Shown in pieces: positions 3,924 to 9,548 of a stretch of 20,460 bases of DNA. Numbering within the stretch: the stretch's first letter is position 1; every line of letters begins with the position of its first letter. Origin of the DNA: a virus; the IMG/VR virus record IMGVR_UViG_3300032242_000790, positions 1 through 20,460 of that record; one strand, 5' to 3'. Position numbers and translations under genes: made by a program. Under the pieces are notes generated by a model. That model had not been told where the DNA came from. It searched no databases and worked only from the letters and a program-made list of their open reading frames with translations.

Positions 3924-4655
3924 ATGAGATTCGTATCCTTATTTGCAGGCGTTGGCGGATTTGATTTAGGGCTTGAGCAAGCAGGTCACACCTGTGTAGG
4001 TCAGGTCGAAATCGACAAGAACGCTCAGAAAGTATTAAAGAAGCATTGGCCGAATGTGCCATTGCATGACGATGTTACTACGGCTATAGATTGGGCTGAT
4101 GAAATTGGACTCACAGGAAATGTTGACCTTGTTTGCGGAGGATTCCCATGTCAAGATGTCTCAGTTGCAGGACGCAGGGCTGGGTTGGCTGGCGAACGTT
4201 CTGGACTTTTCTTTGACGCACTCGCTTTTGCGACGCACGTCAAAGCCAAAAGAATTATCTTGGAGAATGTGCCAGGACTTCTATCAAGCAACCAAGGACG
4301 GGATTTCGGAGTCGTCCTCACTAATCTGGCCGACGCAGGGTATAGCAACATCGAATGGCGTGTTCTTGATTCGCAATTCTTCGGAGTCCCCCAACGACGC
4401 AGAAGAGTCTTCATTGTTGCAAGTCTTGGAACAGAACCCTTCAAGCAAATACTCTCTGAGCGAGAAAGCAGCACAGGGGATTATTCGCAGGGCAAATCGT
4501 CGGGGCAAGACTCTGCCGACTCAACTTCAGGAAGCGCTGGAGAGCATAGCGAACCAGTAGCAAGGATGCTGGGCTTTGGTCACTATGCCATGGATGACAA
4601 GGCTTCAGCGCTTAAAGCTCGTGACTACAAGGACGCTACGGACTTAGTGCTGTGA
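3924..4655 (+). CDS. C5 cytosine DNA methyltransferase, N-terminal catalytic part (split gene, motifs I-VIII)
   Basis: The product transfers a methyl group from S-adenosylmethionine to cytosine C5 in DNA. Visible motifs: SAM-binding motif I FVSLFAGVGGFDLG (residues 3-16), catalytic motif IV GGFPCQDVS with Cys76, motif VI ENV (114-116) and motif VIII QRRRRVFIV (157-165). After residue 165 the sequence becomes a Ser/Gly/Asp-rich linker and then GFGHYAMDDKASALKARDYK, the usual entry to the target-recognition region of phage enzymes. Translation stops at TGA 4653-4655 before motifs IX and X, which are in the next ORF. I chose ATG 3924 because C5 enzymes normally start a few residues before FxxLFAGxGG; a TTG at 3897 lies in the loop of the inverted repeat. 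No restriction endonuclease is adjacent, so it is probably an orphan enzyme protecting phage DNA. Confidence 0.9.
   Translation: MRFVSLFAGVGGFDLGLEQAGHTCVGQVEIDKNAQKVLKKHWPNVPLHDDVTTAIDWADEIGLTGNVDLVCGGFPCQDVSVAGRRAGLAGERSGLFFDALAFATHVKAKRIILENVPGLLSSNQGRDFGVVLTNLADAGYSNIEWRVLDSQFFGVPQRRRRVFIVASLGTEPFKQILSERESSTGDYSQGKSSGQDSADSTSGSAGEHSEPVARMLGFGHYAMDDKASALKARDYKDATDLVL
4099..4560 (+). other. Overlapping +1-frame ORF inside the methyltransferase, 153 codons
   Basis: This frame is open from ATG 4099 to TAG 4558-4560, entirely within the methyltransferase first half. Its C-terminal half reads DGISESSS, then SSESPNDAEESSLLQVLEQN, then KYSLSEKAAQGIIRRANRRG and KTLP. I recall closely similar strings (KYYLSPKAxxGILRRAxKRGKxLP preceded by LNTSExPxDA) in annotated phage proteins often found beside C5 methyltransferases. 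The strings correspond to the +1 translation of the motif VIII region (LDSQFFGVPQRRRRVFIV) and the following linker. It may be an overprinted real protein, or an apparent family created because the methyltransferase frame is conserved. No strong ribosome-binding site precedes ATG 4099. Confidence 0.35.
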
Positions 4656-5314
4656 TTGTCTTTACTAAGGCTCGTCGGGCACAGAGCGATACTGATTATG
4701 AAACTTGGATTGCTGGAGAGGTAACCCCTACATTGAACGTATTTGATAACGGCACTGAGACACGGGCTACCGTGCTCATTATTGATGGAACCCGAGTGGG
4801 AGATGTGAGAGTCTATGCTGATGACCTTATGCAAACGGTTATTCAAAGGTGGGGAACAGGAGGAGGAAACGTGCCATACGTATTCCCAATACACGATACG
4901 GCAACCCGCTCTGTGGGTAAGCGGAAGCACTCAGATGGTACCTATTCCCTTGACGGCAAAGGTAATGGGCTTGGAGTCGGAGAGGATGGAGACCCGATGA
5001 ATACTCTAACTAGTGGTGACCGCCATGCGGTTGCCTACAGCATTCGTGAGGATGCCAAGGCTAACAACTTCTCGGCTACCGAGATTAACACAGCAAGGGC
5101 GCTACAAGCCCTTCAGCCGTCCGTACAGAGCCATCACGCTCAGACCTTTATCGCAGAACCAGCCGTGGTTCGTCGCCTCACTCCGTTGGAGTGTGAGCGT
5201 CTACAGGGCTTTCCTGACGGTTGGACTGAAGACCAAGCAGATACCAATCGATACAAGCAGATGGGTAACGCTGTTACCGTCAATGTAATTAATTGGATTG
5301 GTAATCGACTATAA
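4652..5314 (+). CDS. C5 cytosine DNA methyltransferase, C-terminal part (target recognition, motifs IX-X)
   Basis: GTG 4652 overlaps the TGA of the catalytic half (GTGA), in the -1 frame relative to it. The 220-residue product starts MIVFTKARRAQSDTDYETW, carries phage-type target-recognition sequence (TLNVFDNGTETRATVLIIDG; GTRVGDVRVY; GTGGGNVPYV; SIREDAKANNFSATE), and ends with motif IX RRLTPLECERLQGFPDGW (174-191) and motif X YKQMGNAVTV (201-210). Both halves are intact up to the junction and together contain every motif of a single-chain enzyme. It could be a true second subunit, as in split enzymes such as M.AquI, a product of -1 frameshifting, a recent one-base deletion or a sequencing error. 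The frame is open from 4625, so the two frames overlap by about 30 bases. No classical X XXY YYZ slippery heptamer is evident in that overlap. Confidence 0.88.
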   Translation: MIVFTKARRAQSDTDYETWIAGEVTPTLNVFDNGTETRATVLIIDGTRVGDVRVYADDLMQTVIQRWGTGGGNVPYVFPIHDTATRSVGKRKHSDGTYSLDGKGNGLGVGEDGDPMNTLTSGDRHAVAYSIREDAKANNFSATEINTARALQALQPSVQSHHAQTFIAEPAVVRRLTPLECERLQGFPDGWTEDQADTNRYKQMGNAVTVNVINWIGNRL

Positions 5315-5329
5315 AAGTTAATTTGATTT

Positions 5330-5434: not shown

Positions 5435-5563
5435 ATGATGAATAACCAAGAGACTTCAGAGGCTTCCCGCCCTGACTTTTTTCATGGCGCCACATTTGGA
5501 ATCGGTTCGTATGGAACTTTGGTGTTTAGTTTGCTAGGTCGTTTCATGGGTGGTCGCAGGTGA
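5435..5563 (+). CDS. Small protein with hydrophobic C-terminal segment, 42 aa
   Basis: A clear Shine-Dalgarno (AAAGGAG, 5424-5430) precedes two adjacent ATG codons (5435 and 5438); the second gives slightly better spacing. The product begins MMNNQETSEASRPDFFHG and ends in a Gly-rich hydrophobic stretch (FGIGSYGTLVFSLLGRFMGG, residues 21-40) before two arginines, which could be a single membrane segment. The TGA overlaps the GTG of the next gene (GTGA), giving translational coupling. I do not recognise a family. It is the first gene after the methyltransferase terminator and may mainly deliver ribosomes to the next gene. Confidence 0.6.
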   Translation: MMNNQETSEASRPDFFHGATFGIGSYGTLVFSLLGRFMGGRR

Positions 5564-6551: not shown

Positions 6552-9548
6552 GTGGCTAATTACACAAAGCCAGGTGTGTACGTTCAGGAAACGTTGACGC
6601 CTAATGTACCCATCACTAATGTTAATGCAACCACAGTTGCTACTTTCATTGGTTCTGCAGACCGAGGCCCGACAACCAGCGTCACTTACAGTGGTTCAGC
6701 AAACGTTGTAGGAACAGCCACCACTATTACTAGTTGGTCGCAGTTTAATAATTTATTCGAGTTTGGTAATGCTGTTACAGCATTTGATTCAACTATTAAT
6801 ACAACTGTTGGTTCAACTAACGCTGGAGTTTCTCCAGGAAAAGACTTGAAGTACGCAGTCAAATCTTTCTTTGACAACGGTGGCTCGCAAGCTGTAATTC
6901 TTCGTGACATTAACTCAAACGCTACCGCAACAACCCTTGACTTGCGTGACGGTAACTCAATCACTTCTCAAAACAGTGTATGGACATTTGACGGCTCTAC
7001 TGCGGGTAGCATTACAATTGCCGCTACTTCAGGAACCCCATTCTCAGGATTTGAGGCTGGTCGTGTAATTGCCCTTACAGGTATTTCAAATTCCAGCTTT
7101 ACCGTGCTTAACGGAAAGAACTGGGTTGTATCTTCCGTAGACGCTGGCGGAACTTACATCAAGATTCCTTACAACGGAACTATTGCAGCGCCTACAGCAC
7201 TATCTATTAGCGCAATTTCCGCTGGTACAGTAACCACAGGCATCATTGGAACTGGCGCCGCTAATACAATCAACGTAGGCTCTTCATCAAGTGTTGCAGT
7301 TAACCAAGCTGTTACGGGTACAGGTATTGGTACGGGTGCCACAGTTCAGACAATCACAGCCACAACAATTACAACAACAGGTACTGGCTCTGCTGGCCAA
7401 GCAATTATTACTGTTACAAGCACCGCTGGTGTTGCTGTTGGTATGACTATCACTGGCACAAATGTTGGAACTAACTCAGTAGTTTCTTCTATTGGCTCAG
7501 GTACCGTAACAGCTTCGGTAAACATCCAGACGGGTGGGCTTTCTGGCTCAAACAACATTACTTTTGGTGGCGCAACGCTACAGTTGTCAGTAGTTAATAC
7601 AGGTTCTGGCGCTGCTGCTGTAAATGGTAATGGTACTTTCTACACAGGTGTTGTTACCTACACGGCTGCCCCTGGAAGCCTTACAGTTGGACAGCCAGTA
7701 ACTATTTCTAGTGCCTCGACATCAGGATACAACGGTACGTTTACTGTAGCCACGGTAGGCGGAAGTAACTTTACTGTAAACGGAAATTACACCACAGGCG
7801 GTTCTACATCAACTGCTTCTGGTGCTTACACACAAGCTCAGGCTTATACCGCTACCTCCCCTATTGTTATTCAGGGTGGTGCACAAAGCCCTAACCGCAC
7901 ACTAAGTATTTCTGCTAATAGCGAGGGCACATGGGGCAACTACCTATGGACAGCGATAACTCCAAGTATTCAAACTGGAGCGTTTGACCTTACGGTGTTC
8001 TACTCGTTAACTGCTACTACCTCAGCAGACTTGACTAACGCCAACGTTGTAGAGTCATTCCAGAACCTTACAACAGACTCTTCAAAATCTAACTATGTCG
8101 CCAAAATTATTACAGCGTCCACATCTAGTTGGGTTTCTGTAACCGACGTCGGCGCTACTGCAACTACTTTGTCTAGTGTAACAGGCTCAATTAATACCAA
8201 CACACTATCGGTTGCTTCAGGCGTAGCATCACTTGTAGTTGGCATGTCTGTTTCTGGTTACTCTGCCGTTCCAGCAGGAACATTGATTACCAACATTTCA
8301 GGTACGACAGTTACTTTGTCTTATCCATTGACAGGTAACATTACAACCTCTAACCCAATTACGTTCTCTCCTCCTTCAAATGTTTTTGACCATCCAAAGT
8401 TTACTTCTTACTGGTCAACTACTCCGTCTTCAGTTAACTTTAGCCAAACGGATTACCAGTTTGCATGGAATGTATCTAAGGTAACTACAGGAATTCCTTT
8501 GGGAAGTTCTACTCCAATTACATACAATGCCGTAAAGCTTGGAGTTACTTCATCAGATACTGCAACCTACCCTGCTGTGACTTCTTACGCCAATAGCAAC
8601 GTAGTAACAGCAGGAAAAGTTGTGTACGCAGCCAGTGCAGGCTCACTTGGCGGGACAAGCTCTGACCTTACTAACGTGGTTCTTCCTCGTCTGGATAGCA
8701 TTAATAGCCCTCTAGTTATTAACTACCCTAAGAAGACAGACGCTAGTTCAGTAAACGCTTTGCTAACTTATGCCTGCAACCGTGGAGATTCATTTGTTAT
8801 TATCGATGGCGGTGGCTCTTTAAGCAATAGCGCTTGGTCTGCAACTAACTCTGTTACTGACGTAATCAATAATGGTAAGTCGTACACCCAGCACTTAAAC
8901 TTTGGTGCAATTTACTACCCTAACCTCAGCGTTTACGACCCTGCAAAGAACAACAACGACACAATAACAATCCCGCCTGGCGGAGCAGTTGCTGCTGTTT
9001 ACGTAAACACCGACTCTTCACGTGGAGTTTACAAAGCACCTGCAGGCGTTTCAGCAGCGCTTTCTAACGTAGTTCAAGTACCTGTATTAACTAATGACGA
9101 CTTCAGTACGGTCGCTAACTCTAACCCGTATGTCAACATTATTCGCTTAGTATCTGGCGCTTACTGTGTCATGGGCGCTCGTACTATCTACAGCATCACG
9201 TCAGACAAGTATGTTCCTATTCGTCGCTCAATCAATTACTTAAGTTCTGCACTTAAGGAAGTAACAGCGTTTGCTGTGTTTGAGCCTAACGATGCAGTCC
9301 TGTGGAGCAAAGTAACTTCAGTAGTTAATAGCTTCTTGTACGATTACTGGCGTTCAGGTGGCTTGGCTGGAGCAACTGCTCCCGCTGCGTTCTACGTTAA
9401 GTGTGATGCAGACAACAACACAGGAACATCTGTCAGCAACGGTGAACTACGCATTGAAATTGGCGTAGCTCTTGAGCAACCTGCTGAATTTGTAATTATT
9501 CGTATTGGTCAAATCAACGGCGGTTCCACCGTCACAGCCTCAGTCTAA
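6552..9548 (+). CDS. Contractile tail sheath protein, 998 aa, with large inserted beta modules
   Basis: The subunit forms the contractile outer tube around the tail tube. GTG 6552 has a good Shine-Dalgarno (AAGGAG, 6541-6546). The N-terminus MANYTKPGVYVQETLTPN is the classic sheath opening. Core elements follow: SANSEGTWGNYLW (about 454-466), IYYPNLSVYDPA, TIPPGGAVAAVYVNTD and SRGVYKAPAGV (about 787-836), and the C-terminal domain KYVPIRRSINYLSSAL, FAVFEPNDAVLWSKV, FLYDYWRSGGLAGATAPAAF, ending in PAEFVIIRIGQI. The protein is much longer than typical sheaths of 400-700 residues. The excess lies at about residues 130-445 and 540-610, in Thr/Ser/Gly-rich modules such as VGMTITGTNVGTNSVVSSI and VGMSVSGYSAVPAGTLITNI. 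These probably project from the tail surface. The next gene, the tube, follows after 11 bases. Confidence 0.95.
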   Translation: MANYTKPGVYVQETLTPNVPITNVNATTVATFIGSADRGPTTSVTYSGSANVVGTATTITSWSQFNNLFEFGNAVTAFDSTINTTVGSTNAGVSPGKDLKYAVKSFFDNGGSQAVILRDINSNATATTLDLRDGNSITSQNSVWTFDGSTAGSITIAATSGTPFSGFEAGRVIALTGISNSSFTVLNGKNWVVSSVDAGGTYIKIPYNGTIAAPTALSISAISAGTVTTGIIGTGAANTINVGSSSSVAVNQAVTGTGIGTGATVQTITATTITTTGTGSAGQAIITVTSTAGVAVGMTITGTNVGTNSVVSSIGSGTVTASVNIQTGGLSGSNNITFGGATLQLSVVNTGSGAAAVNGNGTFYTGVVTYTAAPGSLTVGQPVTISSASTSGYNGTFTVATVGGSNFTVNGNYTTGGSTSTASGAYTQAQAYTATSPIVIQGGAQSPNRTLSISANSEGTWGNYLWTAITPSIQTGAFDLTVFYSLTATTSADLTNANVVESFQNLTTDSSKSNYVAKIITASTSSWVSVTDVGATATTLSSVTGSINTNTLSVASGVASLVVGMSVSGYSAVPAGTLITNISGTTVTLSYPLTGNITTSNPITFSPPSNVFDHPKFTSYWSTTPSSVNFSQTDYQFAWNVSKVTTGIPLGSSTPITYNAVKLGVTSSDTATYPAVTSYANSNVVTAGKVVYAASAGSLGGTSSDLTNVVLPRLDSINSPLVINYPKKTDASSVNALLTYACNRGDSFVIIDGGGSLSNSAWSATNSVTDVINNGKSYTQHLNFGAIYYPNLSVYDPAKNNNDTITIPPGGAVAAVYVNTDSSRGVYKAPAGVSAALSNVVQVPVLTNDDFSTVANSNPYVNIIRLVSGAYCVMGARTIYSITSDKYVPIRRSINYLSSALKEVTAFAVFEPNDAVLWSKVTSVVNSFLYDYWRSGGLAGATAPAAFYVKCDADNNTGTSVSNGELRIEIGVALEQPAEFVIIRIGQINGGSTVTASV

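Follow-up and report, generated by a model that had tools for sequence, protein, structure and literature searches.

A putative two-chain C5 DNA methyltransferase with a reading frame nested in its catalytic chain in a contractile-tailed phage contig

The stretch of DNA analyzed here (the window) is a 20,460-base viral contig, IMG/VR record IMGVR_UViG_3300032242_000790, in which two overlapping reading frames encode a predicted C5 cytosine DNA methyltransferase. Because the window contains genes for a tail sheath, a tail tube and a baseplate, its source is, by gene content, a contractile-tailed phage. The methyltransferase locus is flanked by the virion structural region on one side and by tail genes on the other. 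It comprises the following features, in coordinates of the window.

3924..4655, plus strand: subunit A of the predicted C5 methyltransferase, 243 amino acids, ATG at 3924 and TGA at 4653-4655, with motifs I (FAGVGG), IV (PCQD, 4146-4157), VI (ENVPG, 4263-4277) and VIII (QRRRR, 4392-4406)
4652..4655, plus strand: four-base GTGA stop/start overlap, formed by the TGA of A and the GTG of B
4652..5314, plus strand: subunit B, 220 amino acids, GTG at 4652 and TAA at 5312-5314, in the -1 (+2) frame of A; its N-terminal cassette, MIVFTKARRAQ..ETW..PTLNVFDNG, is followed by further cassettes
5168-5311, plus strand: motif IX (VRRLTPLECERLQGFP) and motif X (RYKQMGNAVTVNV) of subunit B
4099..4560, plus strand: open reading frame (ORF) C, 153 amino acids, lying within A in the +1 frame, with further possible in-frame starts at 4120 and 4123
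4384..4545, plus strand: conserved C-terminal domain of ORF C, LSxVLE..KYSLSxKAAQGIxRRANRRGKTLPxxLQxAL

Both chains matched PF00145 above its curated cut-off, subunit A over profile positions 1-168 (E 2e-52) and subunit B over positions 220-321 (E 6e-16). Residues 13-174 of M.HhaI align to subunit A, and the catalytic and the IX-X parts map onto opposite ends of this enzyme. Read together, the two chains display motifs I, IV, VI, VIII, IX and X in order (PCQD, ENVPG, QRRRR, RRLTPLECERLQGFP, GNAV). By these motifs the A/B pair is assigned to the C5 cytosine methyltransferases, and methyl transfer is predicted. A chance origin of this domain layout was excluded because of the domain matches and their recurrence in relatives. 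A first-pass annotation of the window had placed motifs I, IV, VI and VIII in one frame and motifs IX and X in the -1 frame, and our analysis confirmed coordinates, motifs and frame. The annotation had also described the split as running exactly between the catalytic and the recognition part. The break does lie inside the variable region, but motif VIII of subunit A is followed by a linker and then by one recognition-type cassette (ASALKARDYKDATDLV) at the C-terminus, and the break falls between two cassettes. Neither this cassette on A nor a third gene nested in A had been foreseen.

Homologues were gathered by querying with each half and with alignments, which yielded some 270 loci. These were scored with one profile for the catalytic part and one for motifs IX-X. 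Both profiles were found in 191 distinct loci, and in 113 of these the two parts occupied different frames. We defined close relatives as the 79 distinct IMG/VR loci whose catalytic domain scored at least 270 bits; loci with C fused to B were counted apart from split loci. The first-pass annotation had proposed asking whether the same break is found in related phages. It recurred at the same place in 74 of the 79 close relatives, and only five carried a single-chain gene. In a tree of 132 catalytic domains, the split sequences fell mainly into two strongly supported clades (28/30 and 47/51 members split), the first of which contains the window. Single-chain genes nested in the split-dominated clades (L021, L116, L143, L156 and L163) look like refusions.

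In the relatives, subunit B opens with a conserved cassette, M-W-F-[VTI]-K-[SA]-[RK]-R-A-Q...ETW..GGV.PTLNAFDNG. Of the 74 split loci, 62 have a start codon no more than six codons from this cassette, and in 46 the start immediately precedes it; a start at most six codons away is expected by chance in about 31%. The frame relation between A and B takes all three values (44, 11 and 7 loci), and the start of B ranges from -44 to +84 nucleotides relative to the stop of A. In the nearest relative, L032, whose B is 75% identical to that of the window, the two chains stand in another frame relation and are both intact. The catalytic parts of L027 and L028 are 98.5% identical; one A in the spacer differs between them and changes the frame, and the halves are intact. 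Furthermore, the rates of change at codon positions 1, 2 and 3 of B were 0.124, 0.080 and 0.352 in the first cassette and 0.106, 0.061 and 0.396 in motifs IX-X. Third positions were fastest in the B frame in both regions, and B is therefore a protein under selection. Judged by their sequences, both chains are under purifying selection.

Comparison among the loci, through the starts in three frames, the selection and the tree, shows B as a conserved subunit that is initiated and translated independently of A. In the window phage, re-initiation at the GTGA overlap is the likely form of B translation. A further GTGA pair had been reported in this genome and does exist: a frame opening at 5327 stops with the TGA at 5561-5563, and the next ORF begins with the GTG at 5560. 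Among the loci compared, GTGA coupling of A and B is particular to the window phage; the relatives use overlaps of up to 44 or gaps of up to 84 nucleotides.

In the relatives, the region separating motifs VIII and IX contains a varying series of cassettes, each some 30-45 residues long and most with a TL or TV dipeptide; cassettes have been exchanged between homologues. The TL is comparable with the TL at positions 250-251 of M.HhaI. Each cassette would recognize a target, and the enzyme probably possesses several target-recognition cassettes and may be multispecific.

The locus very probably encodes a C5 DNA methyltransferase that consists of two polypeptides, each with its own translation start, and has an anatomy like that of M.AquI. 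A naturally split enzyme, as the first-pass annotation had supposed, is favored by the 74 split relatives, the conserved B start in varying frames, the selection and the two clades. Subunit A would supply the S-adenosylmethionine-binding and catalytic motifs I-VIII, and subunit B most of the recognition cassettes together with motifs IX-X. Ribosomes finishing A at 4655 would re-initiate at the overlapping GTG at 4652 and synthesize B, after which the two chains would assemble into one enzyme. With its predicted activity and specificity, this enzyme may mark the phage DNA, most likely as a protection against host restriction.

Several points weigh against this interpretation. The support for a two-chain enzyme consists entirely of comparative sequence evidence. 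The exact cassette-plus-start pattern is missing in 12 of the 74 split relatives, and the B start in the window is a GTG preceded by a weak GGA. The window is one metagenome contig, and an exact search of its junction in IMG/VR gave no match. No close relative was found among isolated phages, whose subunit A was below 60% identity throughout. A structure model of the joined L028 chains (TAG read as Q) was confident in the catalytic and IX-X ends only, not in the cassettes. Moreover, in eight relatives (L018, L067, L071, L094, L102, L127, L138 and L142) the frame of B is itself broken at ETW..GGV, where a poly-G tract lies. These breaks would be either switched-off variants or homopolymer errors.

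Such tracts raise the alternative of a contingency locus, in which poly-G slippage alters the tail of A, the frame of B or an A-B fusion, and the population varies its methylation. The B regions of the 74 split relatives contain 46 tracts of at least seven guanines (for example L012:3692 and 3863; L077:3052 and 3143), while 2.8 are expected from synonymous codon choice and the maximum was 8 in 300 simulation runs. The pair is also present in Omegavirus phages of Mycobacterium smegmatis, where it is annotated as two methyltransferase genes (Dove gp107/gp108). Six Omegavirus loci (L271, L279, L280, L281, L282 and L283) are identical over about 1,140 nucleotides except for one poly-G tract; its G8, G9 and G10 forms lead to A proteins of 248, 280 and 232 amino acids and leave B unaffected. 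In the relatives the poly-G variation looks like slipped-strand variation of phage methylation, homopolymer error being the other possibility, and the length of such tracts is error-prone in sequencing. The repeat tract of varying length typical of phase-variable methyltransferases occurs in the relatives but not in the window, whose methyltransferase region contains no tract of seven or more guanines. The break of the window is left unexplained by slippage, and we consider this alternative unlikely.

Even less probable is a single-chain enzyme whose frame was interrupted through an error in sequencing or assembly or through decay by a recent frameshift, an alternative that the first-pass annotation had kept in view. 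Within the window contig alone, one base would suffice to join the frames; single-chain homologues exist, some of them 80% identical in the catalytic part (L021), and L032 and the window differ in the frame relation of A and B. Against this stand the recurrence of the split in the same region, the conserved B start and the selection on both halves. In addition, the split has persisted across two deep clades and is present in complete isolate genomes, and decay would not keep both frames open. The recurrence refutes this alternative as an account of the loci in general. A single protein produced by programmed ribosomal frameshifting or stop-codon readthrough is hardly credible either, even though many loci have overlapping chains, B often being in the +1 frame: as the first pass had stated, no X XXY YYZ slippery heptamer is present at 4400-4655; the varied frames, the gaps of up to 84 nucleotides, the B start retained beside the cassette and the loci L032 and L027/L028 exclude frameshifting as the common mechanism; and readthrough from C into B was ruled out, since C and B in one frame are mostly separated by several stops.

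ORF C, nested in subunit A, is open in 79 of 79 close relatives, with strong conservation of its C-terminal part. We compared differences at the codon positions of A along the gene in 95 pairs. Before motif IV, positions 1, 2 and 3 of A differed 665, 382 and 2202 times, third positions varying most. After motif VIII, where the C domain lies, the order was reversed (1349, 715 and 532), which would be expected if selection acted on the C frame in this region. Downstream of the C stop, the A frame led again (388, 346 and 661). The drop in the third-position rate of A starts in the bin 60 nucleotides before motif IV, where the candidate starts of C are located. By its pattern of evolution, ORF C is shown to be coding and under selection in its own frame.

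The N-terminal half of C overlaps conserved methyltransferase motifs, and a C profile was built on the 57-residue domain after motif VIII alone. With this profile, the domain was detected in 190 of the 191 related methyltransferase loci; in 160 it is an ORF of its own in the +1 frame, in the other 30 it forms a fusion with B. The fusions occur mostly in genomes of Bacillota. In L197, L204, L206-L208, L212 and similar loci of Bacillota, the catalytic chain stops a short way past motif VIII; C, the cassettes, IX and X are carried by a second gene, which is in a different frame and overlaps the first by up to ~500 nucleotides. C matches PHROG 16143, which contains such proteins and is absent from all 14 control genomes; it is thus known to the PHROG database, though not as a nested gene. 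In seven isolate or reference phage records, C lies in the +1 frame under an annotated gene and has no annotation. The AlphaFold model of C comprises a confident two-helix end and a low-confidence remainder. A Foldseek search with this model returned nothing significant, no sequence match to solved structures was obtained, and motifs IX and X are absent from C. From its position in the locus and, mainly, from its fusion to B in another lineage, we infer that C serves this enzyme as an accessory component.

Most members of two large phage clades are split, which provides many natural pairs for assembly studies and split-enzyme engineering. As the pair is present in cultured M. smegmatis phages, it is directly testable there. 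As C is not annotated in the seven records, a portion of a common phage gene may have escaped notice. A more tentative proposal, which we regard as possible rather than probable, is that three-component phage C5 methyltransferases (catalytic chain, recognition chain and the conserved C, overprinted in the +1 frame and working with the enzyme) are common, and that the split between cassettes and, in numerous lineages, poly-G slippage let phages reshuffle or switch specificity. If this were true, the poly-G tracts of the relatives would make phage methylation switchable, as a counter-move to host restriction.

Outside the methyltransferase locus, the tail sheath gene at 6552-9548 encodes 998 amino acids, roughly double the length of the sheath profile of PHROG 23 (496). 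The match to PHROG 23 is spread over both ends of the protein, with a long Gly/Ser/Thr-rich middle. No restriction enzyme was seen beside the methyltransferase in the window.

Only two naturally two-chain C5 methyltransferases, M.AquI and M.EcoHK31I, are named in PMC3404938. According to PMC3404938, M.AquI is split within the variable region that separates motif VIII from motif IX. The window pair, as two ORFs divided in this region, shares the division point of this cyanobacterial two-subunit enzyme (CYCGRG), in agreement with the parallel drawn by the first-pass annotation. In contrast to M.AquI, pairs of the window type occur in phages, carry several cassettes on B, include a nested third gene and have repeatedly changed the frame relation of A and B. 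The small subunit of M.EcoHK31I carries only motif IX (PMC3404938). M.EcoHK31I (YGGCCR) needs two polypeptides, as the window pair would, but it is divided differently, motifs IX and X both lying on B here. The coding sequence of its small subunit lies within that of the large one, in an alternative frame, an arrangement that ORF C resembles. ORF C is nested and selected, but motif IX is found on B.

The C5 methyltransferases of Bacillus phages (SPR, phi3T, rho11s and H2; M.phiBssHII) contain tandem target-recognition domains in the variable region (PMC12707154, PMC8936443). The exchange of cassettes among the window homologues recalls these multispecific enzymes; they are single chains, whereas the cassette array of the window is spread over two. 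Dove gp107/gp108 resembles the window in having a catalytic chain with nested C and a separate IX-X chain, and differs in its recognition cassettes, a shorter B (116 amino acids), a gap of 21 nucleotides and the variable poly-G tract. In phasevarions, homopolymer slippage shifts the frame of a methyltransferase, as it seemingly does in the window relatives; the known cases found are bacterial. A search of the open literature, incomplete in its coverage, retrieved no description of a widespread, mobile split in phages, of a cassette array on two chains or of the nested gene. What is new here is the frequency and mobility of the split among phages, the distribution of cassettes over two chains and the nested gene C.
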